Positions 5,313-64,000 of a stretch of DNA of 64,000 bases are shown here, one piece after another. Numbering within the stretch: position 1 is the first letter of the stretch; every line of letters starts with the position of its first letter. The notes under the pieces are model-generated. The model worked only from the letters and a program-made list of their open reading frames with translations, did no database searches and was not told the origin of the DNA. Source of the stretch: Multifurca ochricompacta (taxonomy: Eukaryota; Basidiomycota; Agaricomycetes; Russulales; Russulaceae); NCBI GenBank assembly GCA_022496185.1, contig WTXG01000068.1, forward strand, positions 1 to 64,000, given 5' to 3'. The position numbers and the translations under genes are program-made.

Positions 5313-5813
5313 TGTTGAACACAGGAGATGTTCGGTGATGCTTCAGGCATCAGGTGATTAGATTAGCTACTTTGTTAGATTAGATTAGATACCGGAGTTT
5401 CGGACTTTTTACATTATCATTATTACTTTCTTTCTCACACTCCGCAGTAGCTGACTGATACACTATGTAACATGTGATTTCTGTATTGGCCAATGGCCTT
5501 TCTCCCTCATGTTTATTATTTGGACTTTGTCCGGCACTTGAGGACTTATTCCCAGTGCACAGACCATCCCTTGGATTGTATATAAGGGTGTCTGTTTCGT
5601 CTCTTACACTTCAGAGTTTCTTCTACCTCTGAAGTGTAAGTCGTCCTCTCTACTATCTTCACTACCTAAGACTAACTCTGTATATAGAACTTGTCTTTCT
5701 AGGTGTGTAGTATAGTTTAATAGAGTTTCTTCTACCTCTGAAGTAACTTGTCTTTCTAGCCTAACCCGCTAACTCTTCACAGTCAGTATGCTGCGCCACA
5801 TGCCTGTTTCACA
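5313..5813 (+). repeat. Copia-type LTR-A, 501 bp
   Basis: Runs from TGTTGAACAC to GTTTCACA. Contains TATATAAGGGTGTCTG near 5579 and the hairpin/repeat module at 5604-5759. The flanks do not form a TSD (left TGTCT, right CATGC). The CATGC on the right instead pairs with GCATG at 18127, beside the inverted LTR-A copy, which marks a rearrangement. Confidence 0.9.
5604..5759 (+). promoter_or_regulatory. LTR hairpin plus duplicated exon-end/intron-tail module
   Basis: About 25 bases after the TATA box lies a 13-bp perfect inverted repeat, TTACACTTCAGAG ... CTCTGAAGTGTAA (5604-5639). It is followed by a splice-donor-like GTAAGT, a CTAAC-like branch site near 5670 and a pyrimidine-rich acceptor AACTTGTCTTTCTAG (5688-5702). 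A second copy of the hairpin's right side (5723-5744) is then joined directly to a second AACTTGTCTTTCTAG (5745-5759). The same layout is in every A/B-type LTR here. Confidence 0.7.
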
Positions 5814-6202: not shown

Positions 6203-6716
6203 TGTCAAACAATCATGCTGCTGGTTATACTGACTGCGGTTAGTAGCGGGTTAGGCTAGAAAACAGATAGTACTTCAGAGGTTAGAAGAACTCTGTATTA
6301 ACTATACTACTGACCTAGAAAACAGATAGTCTACATAAGACGGTTAGTTAAAGGTAAAGACAGTATAGTAAAGAAGGAACTTACACTTCAGAGGTTAGAA
6401 GAACTCTGAAGTGAAAGGGATGAAACAGACACCCTTATATACCCATAGGGGCCAGGGGAAATGGTCTGTGCGCACTGGGAATAAGTCCACAAGTGCCGGA
6501 CAATAAACAGAGAGGGATAAAGGCTATTGGCCAAGGAGATATCACATGCTTACAGCGCATTACTAAGTCCATCACTAATCAGCTGAGTAAGAAGAAAAGG
6601 AAGTGTAATAAAGATAACATAAAAAGTCCGATACTCCGAAATCTAATCTAATCTAATCTACAGCTGAAGCGAACCTTAGATGCCTGAAGCATCTCCAGAC
6701 ACGTCCTGTGTCAACA
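6203..6716 (-). repeat. 3' LTR-B of Co1, 514 bp
   Basis: Reads TGTCAAAC ... GTGTCAACA on the plus strand. Contains the inverted TATATA promoter near 6435 and the duplicated hairpin/acceptor module with its own variants (loop TTCTTCTAAC twice, tail CTATCTGTTTTCTAG twice). Confidence 0.92.
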
Positions 6717-17035: not shown

Positions 17036-18126
17036 TGTGAAACAGGCATGTGGCGCAGCATACTGACTGTGAAGAGTTAGCGGGTTAGGCTAGAAAGACA
17101 AGTTACTTCAGAGGTAGAAGAAACTCTATTAAACTATACTACACACCTAGAAAGACAAGTTCTATATACAGAGTTAGTCTTAGGTAGTGAAGATAGTAGA
17201 GATGTGACAGTTTGTTTTCCTTACTTTTCTTTTCTTTGTCGACTGTCTGGACAACTGTCTGAGTTGTATCAGTTAACCTATCTAACTAGGTTAACTGACT
17301 GAATACTAGGAGGGCGTAACCCCTCTATTGTTTTCCCTTTCCTTATGTACTGATCTAGCCCATCTCCTGTACCTATATGACGTGGTATGACGTAGCGTTG
17401 AGGTCACTGTGACGCAGCATGATATCATCCTATTATACCTACTTTACTTCATTGGCTAGACTCTTATCTCGAGTAGCGATCCAACTGTATTTAAACCTAT
17501 TACACTCTAGAGAACAGACCTTAAGTCTGTTCTCCTGTGTCAATACAGGTGTTTCCTTTGACTCACTGAAAGATCCCCTTGAACCCTCTTAAGTCGCGAC
17601 TTAGAGGGACTTCGAACCCCAGTAGCTTGTGACAGGACCTAGTGTCGCTGTTCGATTCCATATCTCGCACGTGCCCCTCTATCTTGTGTGGGCTTAACTC
17701 GACTTGACTGTAGTCTTGATCTTGACTTAGTTACCTTGAATCCGAACGACTCTCTGGTCTTGACACAGCACGCACCTGGCTGTGACAAGAGAGGACGACT
17801 TACACTTCAGAGGTAGAAGAAACTCTGAAGTGTAAGAGACGAAACAGACACCCTTATATACAATCCAAGGGATGGTCTGTGCACTGGGAATAAGTCCTCA
17901 AGTGCCGGACAAAGTCCAAATAATAAACATGAGGGAGAAAGGCCATTGGCCAATACAGAAATCACATGTTACATAGTGTATCAGTCAGCTACTGCGGAGT
18001 GTGAGAAAGAAAGTAATAATGATAATGTAAAAAGTCCGAAACTCCGGTATCTAATCTAATCTAACAAAGTAGCTAATCTAATCACCTGATGCCTGAAGCA
18101 TCACCGAACATCTCCTGTGTTCAACA
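17036..18126 (-). repeat. LTR-A, minus strand, interrupted by LTR-D
   Basis: TGTGAAACAGGC at the left and TGTTCAACA at the right are the reversed LTR-A ends. The LTR is opened at 17203-17787 by a solo LTR-D with TSD AGAGA. Left flank AACAG and right flank GCATG do not match each other; the right flank pairs with CATGC at 5814. Confidence 0.9.
17203..17787 (+). repeat. Solo LTR-D, 585 bp
   Basis: TGTGACAGTTTG...GGCTGTGACA with a perfect TSD AGAGA (17198-17202 and 17788-17792). TATTTAAA near 17490 is followed by the palindrome GAGAACAGAC-CTTAA-GTCTGTTCTC near 17511-17535. Confidence 0.93.
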
Positions 18127-21169: not shown

Positions 21170-21682
21170 TGTTGAACACAGGACATGTTCGGTGATGCTT
21201 CAGGCATCAGGAGATTAGATTAGCTACTTTGTGGATTAGATTAGATATCAGAGTTTCAGACTTTTACCATATCATTATTATTTCTTTCTCACATTCCGCA
21301 GTAGCTGACTGATGTACCTTAGTAATGATACACAAGCATGTGATTCCTTACTGGCCAATAGCCTTTATCCCTCTTGTTTATTGTTTGGACTTTGTCCGGC
21401 ACTTGAGGACTTATTCCCAGTGCACAGACCATCCCTTGGATTGTATATAAGGGTGTCTGTTTCATCTCTTACACTTCAGAGTTTTCTTCACCTCTGAAGT
21501 GTAAGTCCCTTCTACATTACTTCCTACTTATACCTTTGACTAACCGCTCTCTGTAGCTAACTTGTCTTTTAGGTTAGTAGTATAGTAATAGAGTTTTCTT
21601 CACCTCTGAAGTCTAACTTGTCTTTTAGCCTTACCCACTAACTACTCACAGTCAGTATGCTGCGCACCATGCCTGTTTCACA
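21170..21682 (+). repeat. LTR-A variant, 3' LTR of Co2
   Basis: TGTTGAACACAGGACATG...GTTTCACA, 513 bp, following the purine-rich CATGGAGGGA. Its hairpin module has its own variants in both copies (loop TTTTCTTCAC, tail TAACTTGTCTTTTAG). Confidence 0.9.
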
Positions 21683-40356: not shown

Positions 40357-40960
40357 TGTTACGACCTACCCAGTGTACCCGACAGACGGCAAGACGTGGG
40401 GGACACACAAGCAGTGACAGTAGCCGTGCGGGGTCTGCAAGGACATCGCTGGCTTAGTCATGATGTCCCACGCCGAAGTCCAGAAGACAGATACGGCATG
40501 AGGTACAGAAGCAGATCATGTGACAGTAAGGTTTGATGCCTCGTGTACAGAAGGACCCTGAACCTTAGTTGACGTGGGAAGACAGTGGCACTGGTTCTGA
40601 TGGAAGGTTCCATAGTCACATGTCCAGAACCACAAGCGTCTAGATAAGCATGATAAGAACGGATGACTAAGCTAGCACCAGCATGTATATATACCCTAGC
40701 TAGTCTTGCTCAGATGGTTCCCCATCTTGAGCTCCTGTGACAATCAGTAGCCTTGTGGACCTTTAACTTCCTTCCTTGCGTCTCACCACCCGGACTCCTC
40801 TCTTTGGTGCTTCGTCCTTCTGGGGCCTTGCACACTGATTGGCTCGTGACTGAGCGTAGCGTTGGACTTATTGTCTTCGCATCAACCCAAGATCGTCCCG
40901 ACCTTGTCTCTGTGACCTAGCCGCCCGCACTCGACCGCGTACGCCCCTCTGAGCGTAACA
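40357..40960 (+). repeat. 3' LTR-E, 604 bp
   Basis: TGTTACGACCTACCC...GAGCGTAACA with the TSD CTGAC to the right. TATATATACCC near 40686 is the likely promoter. Confidence 0.92.
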
Positions 40961-41433
40961 CTGACTGTGGTTAGTTAGCGGGTTAGGCTAGAAAGACAAG
41001 TTACTTCAGAGGTAGAAGAAACTCTATTATACTATACTACACACCTAGAAAGACAAGTTCTATATACAGGGTTAGTCTAAGGTAGTGATGATAGTAGAGA
41101 GGACGACTTACACTTCAGAGGTAGAAGAAACTCTGAAGTGTAAGAGACGAAACAGACACCCTTATATACACTTTCAAGGGATGGTCTGTGCACTGGGAAT
41201 AAGTCCACAAGTGCCGGACAAAGTCCAAACAATAAACAAGAGAGATTAAGGCCATTGGCCACTACAGAAATCACATGTTACATGGTGCATCAGTCAGCTA
41301 CTGCGGAATGTGAGAAAGAAAGTAATAATGATAATGTAAAAAGTCCAAAACTCCGGTATCTAATCTAATCTACAAGTAGCTAATCTAATCACCTGATGCC
41401 TGAAGCATCACCGAACATCTTCTGTGTTCAACA

Positions 41434-44894: not shown

Positions 44895-45404
44895 TGTTGA
44901 ACACAGGACATGTTCGGTGATGCTTCAGGCATCAGGAGATTAGATTAGCTACTTTGTGGACTAGATTAGATATCAGAGTTTCAGACTATTTACAATATCA
45001 TTATTACTTTCTTTCTCACATTCCACAGTAGCTGACTGATGTACCTTAGTAAGGATGTACAAGCATGTGATTCCATACTGGCCAATGGCCTTATTCCCTC
45101 TTGTTTATTGTTTGGACTCTGTCCGGGACTTGTGGACTTATTCCCAGTGCACAGACCATCCCTTGAGAATGTATATAAGGGTGTCTGTTTCATCTCTTAC
45201 ACTTCAGAGTTTTCTTCACCTCTGAAGTGTAAGTCCCTTCTACATTACTTCCTACTTATACCTTTGACTAACCACTCTCTATAGCTAACTTGTCATTTAG
45301 GTCAGTAGTATAGTAACAGAGTTTTCTTCACCTCTGAAGTCTAACTTGTCATTTAGCCCGCTAAACTTTACAGTCAGTATGCTGTGCCTCATGCCTGTTC
45401 AACA
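44895..45404 (+). repeat. LTR-A variant, 510 bp
   Basis: TGTTGAACACAGGAC...CCTGTTCAACA. The flanks ATGGA and ACATC do not match, so this LTR is probably a recombination junction between Gy3 and a pogo element. Both copies of its module share the tail CTAACTTGTCATTTAG. Confidence 0.88.
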
Positions 45405-46603: not shown

Positions 46604-47115
46604 TGTCAAACAATCATGCTGCTGGTTATACTGACTGAGGTTAGTAGCGGGTTAGGCTAGAAAAGACAAGTAACTTCAGATGTTAGAAGAACTCTATATT
46701 ACTACACTACTGACCTAGAAAAGACAAGTACTATAAGAAGCGTTAGTCTAAAGGAAGTAGAGAGTAAACTAGAAGGAACTTACACTTCAGATGTTAGAAG
46801 AACTCTGAAGTGTAAAGGACGAAACAGACACCCTTATATACCCATGAGGGCCAGGGGAAATGGTCTGTGCGCACTGGGAATAAGTCCACAAGTGCCAGAC
46901 AATAAACTAAGAGGGATAAAGGCTATTGGCCAAGGAGATATCACATGCTTACTGCGCATTACTAAGGGCATCACTAATCAGCTGAGTAAGGTGAGAAAGA
47001 AACATAATAAAGATATCATAAAAAGTCCAAAACTCCGGAACCTAATCTAATCTAATCTACAGCTGAAGCGATCCTCAGATGCCTGAAGCATCTCCAGACA
47101 CGTCCTGTGTCAACA
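46604..47115 (-). repeat. 3' LTR-B of Co3
   Basis: 512 bp, TGTCAAACAATC...GTGTCAACA. Both module copies carry a stem variant (CATCTGAAGT in place of CCTCTGAAGT). Confidence 0.95.
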
Positions 47116-52618: not shown

Positions 52619-53128
52619 TGTCAAACAATCATGCTGCTGGTTATACTGACTGGGTTAGTAGCGGTTAGGCTAGAAAAGACAAGTAACTTCAGATGTTAGA
52701 AGAACTCTATATTACTACACTACTGACCTAGAAAAGACAAGTACTATAAGAAGCGTTAGTCTAAAGGAAGTAGAGAGTAAACTAGAAGGAACTTACACTT
52801 CAGATGTTAGAAGAACTCTGAAGTGTAAAGGACGAAACAGACACCCTTATATACCCATGAGGGCCAGGGGAAATGGTCTGTGTGCACTGGGAATAAGTCC
52901 ACAAGTGCCGGACAATAAACTAAGAGGGATAAAGGCTATTGGCCAAGGAGATATCACATGCTTACTGCGCATTACTAAGGGCATCACTAATCAGCTGAGT
53001 AAGGTGAGAAAGAAACATAATAAAGATATCATAAAAAGTCCAAAACTCCGGAACCTAATCTAATCTAATCTACAGCTGAAGCAATCCTCAGATGCCTGAA
53101 GCATCTCCAGACACGTCCTGTGTCAACA
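52619..53128 (-). repeat. 5' LTR-B of Co3
   Basis: 510 bp, partner of 46604-47115 with the same hairpin-module variants. Confidence 0.95.
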
Positions 53129-53499
53129 TGATGTACTTAGTAATGCGCAGTTAGCACGTGATATCTCTTTGGCCAATAGCCTTTATCCCTCTTTGTTCAT
53201 TGTCCAGCACTTGTGGACTTATTCCCAGTGCGCACAGACCATTTCCCCTGGCCCCCATGGGTATATAAGGGTGTCTGTTTTGTCTCTTTCACTTCAGAGT
53301 TCTTCTACCTCTGAAGTGTAAGTTCCTCTTTTACTATACTGTTCTCTTACCTTTAACTAACCGTCTTATGTAGACTACCTGTTTTCTAGGTCAGTAGTAT
53401 AGTTAATACAGAGTTCTTCTACCTCTGAAGTACTACCTGTTTTCTAGCCTAACCACTACTAACCACAGTCAGTATAACCAGCAGCATGATTGTTTGACA

Positions 53500-57396: not shown

Positions 57397-57907
57397 TGTT
57401 GACACAGGACGTGTCTGGAGATGCTTCAGGCATCTAAGGTTCACTTCAGCTGTAGATTAGATTAGATTAGATTTCGGAGTATCGGACTTTTTATGTTATC
57501 TTTATTACATTTCTTTCTCACCTTACTCAGCTGATTAGTGATGGACTTAGTAATGTGCAGTAAGCATGTGATATCTCTTTGGCCAATGGCCTTTATCCCT
57601 CTCTGTTTATTGTCTGGCACTTGTGGACTTATTCCCAGTGCGCACAGACCATTTCCCCTGGCCCCATGGGTATATAAGGGTGTCTGTTTCATCTCTTTCA
57701 CTTCAGAGTTTCTTCAACCTCTGAAGTGTAAGTTCTACTATACTTTCTACTTTACCTTTGACTAACTGTCTCTTGTAGATACTTGTCTTTTCTAGGTCAG
57801 TAGAATAGTAATATAGAGTTTCTTCAACCTCTGAAGTATACTTGTCTTTTCTAGCCTAAACCGCTACTAACCACAGTCAGTATAACCAGCAGCATGATTG
57901 TTTGACA
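57397..57907 (+). repeat. Solo LTR-B in Co4 gag
   Basis: 511 bp with TSD GCATG (57392-57396 and 57908-57912). Both module copies share the loop TTTCTTCAA and the tail TACTTGTCTTTTCTAG. Confidence 0.95.
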
Positions 57908-60252: not shown

Positions 60253-62553
60253 ACAGAACTCCCATCCATTCTAATAAATGGAAAACTCCACTTGAGCTTC
60301 TGGTTGGGAACAAACCAGATGTCTCGTATTTCAAGGTCTTTGGTTGCAAAGCCTATTATCATGTTCCAGAGGGCAAGTGGCGTAAGCTAGATCCCAAAGC
60401 CAGGGAAGCCGTCTTTGTCAGGTATGAGCCCACATCTAAGGGCTATACACTTTGGGATAGTCATACCCAGTCTCTCATCTCTTCAAGAGATGTTACATTT
60501 GATGAGAGATCCTTCCCATCCCGCTCTGTGAAGGACAGCAGAGTAGATAAACCTGTAGAGCAACCTAGTGAAGGTGGCTCATTTACTTTACCTGGTGGCT
60601 CAGTCCAGCCACCACCAGCAACTGCTACACAAGTTCCTGAGGCTCCTCAAGATGAGGAAGACCTGGAAGAGGAACAGGAGGACATCGTACCTCCTCAATT
60701 ACCACCACAGCCTACCACACCCACACGTAATGTAGACACCACACAACCTCAGACTATATATCAGACTCCTCCATCTCAAGTCATGGAACCATCCTCCCCT
60801 CCCAAAAGAACCCATGCAATCAGAAAATCAGAAAGAATTGCAGGCAGACTTCCTCAACCTAATTTTCAGAGGACAAGTCCATGCTCTGAACGACGAGATA
60901 GGGCAATCCAAGAAGATTTAGACTTGGATACTGCACGTCCCAATTGGAATCATCATCTGAATCCTCACTTCTACAATGAGGATAATGCAGAGTTTGTGCA
61001 GGGTTCTTCCAGACTTGGTCAGATGGATCTACTCAATGCTGCAGGATCGCCTTACAGGGATCCTCTTACTTTTAAAGAAGCAATGGAGTCTAACAATGCC
61101 AGTGATTGGCTTGAGGCATGCCAATATGAAATTGACACCTTAGAAAAACTTAAAGTGTGGCACCTTGAAGACCTTCCTGAAGGTAGAAAGGCTGTAAAGT
61201 CCAAGTGGGTTTTTAAATTGAAAGCAGATGGACGCTTTCGTGCTAGGCTTGTAGCAAAAGGGTTCACCCAAATAGAGGGGGTGGACTTCAATGAAACCTT
61301 CTCCCCAGTCACCAGATTTGAGTCTCTTAGACTGTTATTAGCGTTGGCCACACTTGAGGATTGGGAAATCCACCAAATGGATGTCAAATCGGCATTCCTA
61401 CATGGCAATCTGGATGAGGAGATTTATATGGAGCAACCCATTGGTTTTGTCATTGCTGGACAAGAGTCCAAAGTTTGTAGGCTACAGAAGGCTCTGTATG
61501 GCCTCAAACAAGCTTCCTGGGCATGGAACTTACAATTCCATGCAGTTCTCAATGAACTGAGCTTCACTCAGACATACTCTGATGCAGGAGTATATGTGTA
61601 TCATCACCAAGAGGGGGATGGTTCACTTTTCGTCATTTTATATGTTGATGACATCACTATACTTGGGTCCTCCACTAAGAAGATTCAATGGCTGAAGGAC
61701 TCTCTATCTAGCCAATATGAGATGACTGATCTTGGCAAAATCCAGTCTTACCTTGGAGTTAACATCACCAGGGATCATCCTAACAAGACACTGGATATTG
61801 ACCAGACAGCCTATGTATCCTCAATAGTTGAGAGGTTTGGAATGGGGGATTCCAACCCAGTATATACTCCTCTACCCTCCGGCGTGGATGTTCATCTGGT
61901 CAAGTTTGAAGACCAGGCATCTACTTCTGAAATTAAGAAGTATCAGCAGTTAATAGGGTCTCTGCTTTGGGTGCAGATTGGAAGCAGACCTGACATTAGT
62001 TTTGCTGTTGCATGCCTTAGTCAATTTGCTTCCAACCCTTCCCAGCAGCACATGCAACTAGCAAAATATGTCTTAGCTTATCTAAATGCTACAAAAGACT
62101 ACAAGTTGCACTATTCTGGAGGGAATGGTGAAGTTGGCCTTCATGGCTATGCAGATTCCTCATGGGGAGATCAAGAGGACCGCCACTCCACCTCTGGCTA
62201 TGTCTTTTCCTTGCTAATGGAGCCATTAGTTGGTGCTCCAGGAAACAAAAGACAGTAGCACAGTCCACCACAGAAGCCAAGTATATGAGCCTAGCAGAGG
62301 CTTCAAATCAGGCTGCATGGTATAGGATGTTCATGCAGGAATTGGGATATGAAGTTAGTTCACCCATACAACTGCATTGTGACAATAAGGGTGCAGTAGA
62401 TCTTGCATTAAACCCAGTCACAGGAAGGCGATCAAAGCACATACCAATAAAGTACCATGCCATTAGGGAGTATGTAGAATCACACCAGATTGACTTGGTG
62501 TGAACTCCCACTGGAGAGATGCTTGCAGATGGCCTTACAAAGTCTCTGCCAAG

Positions 62554-63544: not shown

Positions 63545-64000
63545 TGTTGAACACAGGAGATGTTCGGTGATGCTTCAGGCATCAGGTGATTAGATTAGCT
63601 ACTTTGTAGATTAGATTAGATACCGGAGTTTCGGACTATTTACATTATCATTATTACTTTCTTTCTCACATTCCGCAGTAGCTGACTGATACACCATGTA
63701 ACATGTGATTCCTGTAGTGGCCAATGGCCTTTCTCCCTCTGTTTATTGTTTGGACTTTGTCCGGCACCTGTGGACTTATTCCCAGTGTGCACAGACTATC
63801 CCTTGGAGTATATAAGGGTGTCTGTTTCGTCCCTTCCACTTCAGAGTTCTTCTAACCTCTGAAGTGTAAGTGGCTTCTATACTATCTACTTAACTATTAG
63901 ACTGACGTTCTCTATATAGAACTTTTCTTTGTCTAGGTCAGTAGTATAGTAATACAGAGTTCTTCTAACCTCTGAAGTAACTTTTCTTTGTCTAGCCTAA
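63545..64000 (+). repeat. LTR-A, runs off the window
   Basis: TGTTGAACACAGGAG... inserted after TACCA in the 3' end of Co4. TATA box near 63810; the module copies share the loop TTCTTCTAAC and the tail AACTTTTCTTTGTCTAG. Confidence 0.9.

Follow-up and report, generated by a model that had tools for sequence, protein, structure and literature searches.

Copia-type elements and the anatomy of their long terminal repeats

The DNA analysed here, referred to as the window, is a stretch of 64,000 nucleotides (nt) from the basidiomycete Multifurca ochricompacta (assembly GCA_022496185.1, contig WTXG01000068.1, positions 1 to 64,000), and it carries retrotransposons whose long terminal repeats (LTRs) hold two copies of a short composite repeat, the second of which equals the first minus a GT-AG block. 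The reverse transcriptase domain RVT_2 (PF07727) was found at window positions 61152-61874 (E = 1.7e-82), and a genome-wide search for PF07727 gave 1159 candidates, of which the best 150 were scored and all 150 lay above the cut-off. Judged by this reverse transcriptase, the element is of ordinary Ty1/copia type (Pseudoviridae), a likeness that extends to the TG...CA ends of its LTRs and to a fixed 12-mer, GGTTATGGGCCC, straight after the LTR end (43 matches, among which overlapping loci may repeat). We take this 12-mer to fit a half tRNA-iMet (initiator methionine transfer RNA) primer site, as in copia. Unlike Ty1/copia, the LTR contains two intron-like blocks together with what would be an internal, pre-spliced copy of the element's own leader.

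The reference LTR (TGTTGA...CACA; at least 45 genome matches, best 40 scored of 1805 candidates) occupies positions 5313-5811 of the plus strand. Downstream of a TATA box (TATATAAG, 5579-5586) lies E1 (5613-5635), the likely exon 1, which would run from a +1 A at 5613, placed by the left edge of the E2 homology and by TATA spacing, to a 5′ splice site. It is followed by putative intron 1 (5636-5687, 52 nt, GTAAGT...GACTAAC...TATATAG) and by P1 (5688-5702, AACTTGTCTTTCTAG), a presumed micro-exon 2 measuring 14-18 nt across 128 LTRs. The next stretch, y (5703-5722), begins GTGTGT and ends in an A (5722) that matches the +1 A of E1. The second E copy, E2 (5723-5744), contains no intron and is joined directly to the second P copy, P2 (5745-5759), whose terminal TAG is a candidate acceptor; y, E2 and P2 together would make up putative intron 2 (5703-5759, 57 nt). 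The LTR closes with the unique 5′ region, U5 (5760-5811).

Exact occurrences of CTCTGAAGTGTAAGT, a 15-mer covering the end of E1 and the intron 1 donor motif, numbered 1460 in the genome, compared with none for the same string written backwards. We read 153 distinct CTCTGAAGTGTAAGT sites, of which 144 had both E copies; the other nine comprised four short LTRs (E1-intron1-P-U5), four interrupted or truncated LTRs and one lacking E1. A boundary rule parsed 142 of the 144, and removal of 12 without a recognisable LTR start and of two duplicates left 128 distinct LTRs, in four of which (L094, L116, L120 and L121) the intron/P1 boundary was set by hand. The 5′ and 3′ LTRs of one element were counted separately. 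Loci fetched or listed by LTR-motif patterns contributed 93 of the 144 LTRs, and 51 came from elsewhere. The main search pattern admits only sites where the E1 end and the donor are intact, and LTRs whose E1 is damaged are therefore under-represented; L136, with an altered E1 beside an intact E2, stands outside the counts. All observations refer to a single genome.

The second copy equals the first minus a GT-AG block

The first copy has the layout E1, GTAAGT...GACTAAC...TAG, P1, GTNNGT, whereas in the second E2 is joined directly to P2 and then to U5; E2-P2 equals E1-P1 minus the GT-AG block. The P repeat is in register, starting at the first base past E2, in 143 of 144 LTRs, and the dinucleotide before P1 is AG in 141 of 143. 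As many as 14 different P starts occur among the 115 LTRs with concordant P copies, and each is mirrored in P2. In LTRs with a tandem TAGAG (L136 and L139-L141) the edge falls at the first AG, so that P2 begins AGAACTTG. No internal AG was found in P1 in any of the 128 LTRs; L139-L141, which lie outside that set, have a P starting with AG. Exceptions at the boundary are L029, whose P2 belongs to another allele, and L069, whose P2 has an extra G, while the acceptor of L116 reads GG and yet its two P copies agree.

E measures 22 nt in 127 of 144 LTRs, and a 21-nt form also occurs. At E1 the +1 A is preceded by a left stem arm, ACTTC, which E2 lacks, so E2 does not form the same hairpin as E1. 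The initial annotation had described a hairpin unit and a pyrimidine-rich tail, each present twice: the repeats are there, but the first copy is interrupted by the GT...AG block and the second is without its ACTTC arm. Counted from the first T of TATATAAG, the left edge of the E2 homology corresponds to an A 34 nt downstream in 125 of 128 LTRs. The duplicated unit is thus delimited by a likely transcription start, by a donor and an acceptor, and by another donor-like site. Given the GTAAGT after E1, the CTAAC...TAG ahead of P1 and the contiguity of E2 and P2, we read E2-P2 as E1-[intron]-P1 in spliced form.

Concerted evolution of the two copies

Within each of the 11 LTRs in the window that carry E1 followed by GTAAGT (E2 being close downstream in 10 of them), E1 equals E2 and P1 equals P2, and the alleles differ between LTRs. 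The initial annotation had claimed precisely this within-LTR identity, which held genome-wide as well: E1 and E2 are identical in 141 of the 144 two-copy LTRs, and P1 and P2 in 115 of the 128 distinct LTRs (rule-based boundaries alone give 127 of 142). The tails it listed for the window LTRs were also confirmed, albeit from a list that omitted the minus-strand LTR at 52623-53128 and labelled the neighbouring 5′-truncated plus-strand LTR as 53129. A stem change, CATCTGAAGT, ascribed there to Co3, is present in two LTRs (at 46805 and 52818).

Chance was rejected as an explanation, random pairing giving P1 = P2 in 6.3 of 128 LTRs on average and in 14 at most over 1000 shuffles. Simple subfamily inheritance was likewise rejected: the P2 of the nearest relative (mean identity of 97.3% over U3, the unique 3′ region) matched in 48 of 128 only, against the 115 in which P1 matched P2.

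Concordance for E and P together was seen in 114 LTRs carrying 54 distinct E+P allele combinations, which implies that some 50 changes ended up in both copies. We compared 41 disjoint near pairs, which share 98.2% identity in U3, E1 and intron 1 taken together and may include the two LTRs of one element: P1 and P2 had both changed in 12, P1 only in one and P2 only in three; between close relatives, 10 of 13 P1 changes were mirrored exactly in P2. Among 62 pairs with an identical 40-nt stretch of U5, P1 differed in 51 and P2 in the same 51 (35 LTRs were involved, and 42 of the 51 pairs were between P-concordant LTRs). P2 was common to 41 of 65 pairs with identical intron 1, compared with 11 of the 62 with identical U5. 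P2 tracks P1, not the adjoining U5, and the evolution of the two copies is concerted.

At the base immediately 5′ of E2, 8 of the 41 near pairs differ, while the base upstream of E1 differs in none of the 41 and the rest of y shows approximately 8 differences in 741 site comparisons (Fisher p = 2.7e-7 for the E2 edge versus the rest of y, p = 0.005 versus the E1 upstream base). A hot spot at E2 only suggests that the junction is remade there each round, which makes E2-P2 the recipient. A hot spot at this edge is what would be left if transferred strong-stop complementary DNA (cDNA) gained untemplated bases at its 3′ end. The rewriting appears to be tied to replication and to have a direction, with E2-P2 rewritten from E1-P1 each round.

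Intron-like signals in the LTR

GTAAGT follows E1 in all of the 30 LTRs most similar overall to the window LTR, which were retrieved on that similarity rather than by motif. A branch-like GACTAAC or AACTAAC is present in 132 of 143 LTRs; in the 128 distinct LTRs it lies 10-17 nt before the acceptor, and putative intron 1 is 49-57 nt long. Introns of actin genes from the same genome, inspected by eye, were of comparable size with GT...AG ends; in our judgement the presence of several per gene points to a filamentous fungus. Putative intron 1 thus has GT...AG ends, an appropriate branch-point distance and a host-like length, and its exact exon-exon junction exists as E2/P2 in 143 of 144 LTRs, in genomic DNA rather than cDNA.

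All 144 LTRs have a second donor-like motif, GTNNGTAG, in the interval from E1 to E2. Putative intron 2 (y, E2 and P2) is 55-61 nt long in the 128 LTRs, with a pyrimidine-rich TAG at its end; if it is a true intron, its removal would join P1 to U5. From these signals we infer that intron 1 is probably spliced and that intron 2 may be as well.

Two further observations concern the same region. The head of y, GTNNGTAGTATAG (window 5703-5715 and equivalent positions), is nearly invariant well past the six donor bases, the main forms of which are GTCAGT and GTGTGT: near relatives showed one change in 533 site comparisons over these 13 nt, while intron 1 showed 44 changes in 2184 (y had been placed with the help of part of the motif, which lost one LTR of 144). 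The initial ~24 nt of U5 (CCTAACCCGCTAAC...CAG/TCAGTATG) resemble another 3′ splice acceptor with a branch motif, and with 0.089 changes per site in near pairs these 24 nt were the fastest-changing of all the stretches compared.

A probable replication cycle through a spliced leader

We consider it probable that the concerted evolution of the two copies reflects replication from a spliced leader, with first-strand transfer onto E2-P2. Under this model, two small spliceosomal introns would lie in the LTR past the point where transcription begins, intron 1 between E1 and P1 and intron 2 consisting of y-E2-P2, and the capped 5′ leader would be spliced to E1^P1^U5 (the caret denoting a spliced junction). 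Minus-strand strong-stop cDNA, primed just downstream of U5, would copy U5, P and E. It would then match E2-P2-U5 of the 3′ LTR end to end, whereas E1-intron1-P1 would be mismatched across the junction, and first-strand transfer would accordingly land on E2-P2 of an unspliced 3′ LTR. Extension upstream through y, P1, intron 1, E1 and U3 would restore both introns in the new LTR, whose E2-P2 would be newly copied from the spliced E1^P1 of the parent. Mutations in E2-P2 would be lost each round, and mutations in E1-P1 of the 3′ LTR would reach both copies after one more round. A spliced 3′ end or a stray landing would leave LTRs of the forms E^P-U5 and E1-intron1-P-U5.

The removal of intron 2 in the template and the landing of the transfer on E2-P2 are steps that we infer. 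Two simpler splicing schemes were tried and rejected. Splicing E1 straight to P2 needs an AG before P2, and E2 ends in GAAGT, so that an extra T would be left; splicing with intron 2 retained predicts an E-P-y product, and an exact-flank search for intact copies gave none.

Reverse transcription of spliced RNA normally destroys introns. Here spliced RNA appears to be the template and the introns nonetheless persist, through a spliced version of the element's own beginning that the LTR carries. We lean, with some reserve, towards the broader proposition that the host spliceosome is an obligate step of the element's genome replication, a pre-spliced repeat region R (E2-P2) that doubles as the intron 2 acceptor allowing the introns to be rebuilt every round. 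If true, splicing would be linked directly to first-strand transfer in an intron-conserving replication cycle, an unusual per-replication concerted evolution would be explained, and genomic DNA alone would record the start site, the choice of splice acceptor and the strong-stop transfer.

Discordant LTRs and shortened forms

LTRs in which the two P copies disagree fit, in part, one-generation donor effects. L092 and L093 (~6.0 kb apart on one contig) and L120 and L121 (~6.3 kb apart) each look like the two LTRs of one element, and because each pair shares its P discordance, the discordance was presumably present at insertion (with one further change in L121). The P2 allele of L029, L057, L092/L093 and L118 exists as P1 in other sampled LTRs, and the core of the P2 allele of L019, L030 and L120 was found as P1 at 16 genome sites, that of L081 at two. 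For L028, L055, L069 and L121 there was no matching P1 within the sampled LTRs, and none was sought genome-wide. The U5 of L029 had no clear donor among the LTRs compared. L093 is discordant for E as well as P, though its E difference probably arose later, being absent from its partner L092.

Shortened LTRs of both expected forms were observed. At 40 places (21 distinct strings) the upstream ACTTC arm is followed by E directly linked to P, with no intron 1, and the seven that were read in context (L129-L135) are all E^P-U5. The E1-intron1-P-U5 form was verified in at least four LTRs (L110, L137, L138 and L142; one form only was searched); L136, L139, L140 and L141, which matched the same search, are two-copy LTRs with P starting AGAACTTG. 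Loss of intron 1 alone (E-P-y) was found nowhere in the genome by an exact-flank search, a zero that covers intact copies, as opposed to 1046 matches for the same left half followed by U5.

Differences between the paired LTRs of L120/L121, and of L133/L134 among the intronless forms, include changes of CG to CA and of CA to TA, suggestive of the deamination of cytosines in copies already inserted.

Points that weigh against the model

Several observations sit poorly with a spliced leader landing on E2-P2. In L094, L120 and L121 the P edge is at the next AG rather than the first, the first AG being very close to the branch motif. GTCAGT and GTGTGT, the donor forms of intron 2, depart further from the canonical sequence than GTAAGT does, and the branch point of intron 2, situated at the E2/P2 junction, looks poor for some P starts (ATACTTG, ACTACTTG). 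The model gives no reason for conservation of the y head past six donor bases, and it explains the variability of U5 only loosely; exchange of U5 between elements may contribute. The lack of intact E-P-y-E-P arrays in the exact-flank search forces the assumption that both introns would have to be removed together, and the model further needs a 3′ LTR that stays unspliced, at least in the acceptor RNA, even though the same introns are present there. Joint discordance of E and P, which mismatched donors should produce, is clean in L081 only. The shortened forms could equally come from deletion between the direct repeats E1/E2 or P1/P2. Lastly, L133 and L134, both intronless and separated by ~6 kb of one contig, have the look of a single element; the introns are thus not strictly required, and the intronless form may itself replicate.

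Alternative explanations

The initial annotation had proposed that one copy is rewritten from the other at each replication round, for example by template switching during strong-stop synthesis. Rewriting at replication, around the strong-stop cDNA, is supported by the 54 concordant alleles, the 10 of 13 mirrored changes and the 51 of 51 pairs in which P2 went with P1. Plain template switching is incomplete, because loss of the GT-AG block, a P edge that tracks the acceptor and a hot spot at E2 only are left unexplained, all of which a spliced leader explains. Reverse transcriptase does jump between direct repeats, and homogenisation of E1/E2 and P1/P2 by such jumps, with no splicing involved, would be in keeping with the reality of the concerted evolution, just as the shortened LTRs could be jump deletions. 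A single jump, however, deletes or adds the intervening stretch and cannot copy E and P across a 52-nt block that is left in place; nor does this mechanism predict GT-AG edges, the acceptor-tracking P start or the E2-only hot spot, and the expanded arrays expected from it numbered zero in the exact-flank search. We consider it unlikely.

It is also possible, at a stretch, that a spliced leader and a landing on E2-P2 are right in outline and that the junction is reached through branched or lariat RNA, the 5′ nucleotide being bonded to the 3′ R, instead of by free strand transfer. A 2′-5′ bond between the 5′ nucleotide and the start of the 3′ R has been proposed for Ty1 (PMC1266399, in the portion available), and read-through of such a branch could also mutate the base at the E2 edge. 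Untemplated end addition is the simpler account of that hot spot.

Chromosomal gene conversion between the copies, which would also yield identity within LTRs and differences between them, seems to us very improbable. Conversion normally needs tracts far longer than the 22 bp of E or the 14-18 bp of P, and here the two would need to be converted on either side of an intron, their edges coinciding with splice sites. A hot spot at the base upstream of E2 would not be expected from conversion, and P2 follows P1 between LTRs that are only ~2 percent diverged, suggesting a per-replication process. A one-time duplication of a spliced leader into the LTR, followed by subfamily ancestry with no recurring rewriting, accounts equally well for the GT-AG relation of the copies but is next to impossible to reconcile with 54 concordant E+P alleles and 10 of 13 mirrored P1 changes, for which independent double mutation is not credible.

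Relation to known systems

The model of a spliced leader transferred onto E2-P2 resembles first-strand transfer in Ty1, where strong-stop cDNA moves to the 3′ R, variation occurs at the transfer point and cDNA ends are untidy. Unlike in Ty1, transfer would be onto an internal second copy and from a donor end that has been spliced. In human T-cell leukaemia virus (HTLV), bovine leukaemia virus (BLV) and foamy viruses a splice donor lies in R, spliced RNAs serving expression and unspliced RNA being the genome. The 5′ splice site in R is thus a shared feature; here a pre-spliced copy of R would be kept in the LTR, and we know of no retrovirus with a donor in R that keeps one. Introns within an LTR element, or spliced RNA from it, are on record for Ogre, EVADE and Cer1 (as cited in the available part of PMC12786077). 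Those of Ogre and EVADE make subgenomic RNAs, according to the same part of that source, whereas the blocks described here lie in the LTR itself, between the TATA box and U5, and the spliced form would be the end of the replicating template.

The accessible sections of PMC12786077, PMC5542766, PMC1266399 and PMC12789967 do not describe the arrangement, and none of the open-access papers listed presents it in its title or in the opening of its abstract; subscription papers were mostly outside this scope, and a precedent may exist. As far as we have seen, this is a copia element with an unreported way of combining splicing and first-strand transfer.

Other LTRs in the window

On the plus strand, the stretch from E1 to P2 lies at 21479-21628 in LTR 21170-21680, at 45207-45356 in LTR 44895-45399, at 53297-53447 in the 5′-truncated LTR 53152-53495, at 57706-57854 in LTR 57397-57903 and at 63844-63995 in LTR 63545-64000, which is cut by the window end. 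Minus-strand counterparts occupy 6256-6406 in LTR 6207-6716, 40988-41133 in LTR 40960-41433, 46657-46805 in LTR 46608-47115 and 52670-52818 in LTR 52623-53128 (E1 at 52818-52797), the last two carrying the CATCTGAAGT variant. A scan for viral contigs gave no matches.

The minus-strand LTR at 17038-18126 is split (17090-17825 from E1 to P2), with E1 at 17825-17804, P1 at 17161-17147 and E2-P2 at 17126-17090; an insertion of ~585 bp (~17203-17787) lies inside its putative intron 1. Elsewhere in the genome, L088 and L095 are interrupted by an insert that begins CAGTGCCTCACAAAACTGAGTCA at a TA and presumably resembles the end of a mariner-type DNA transposon.
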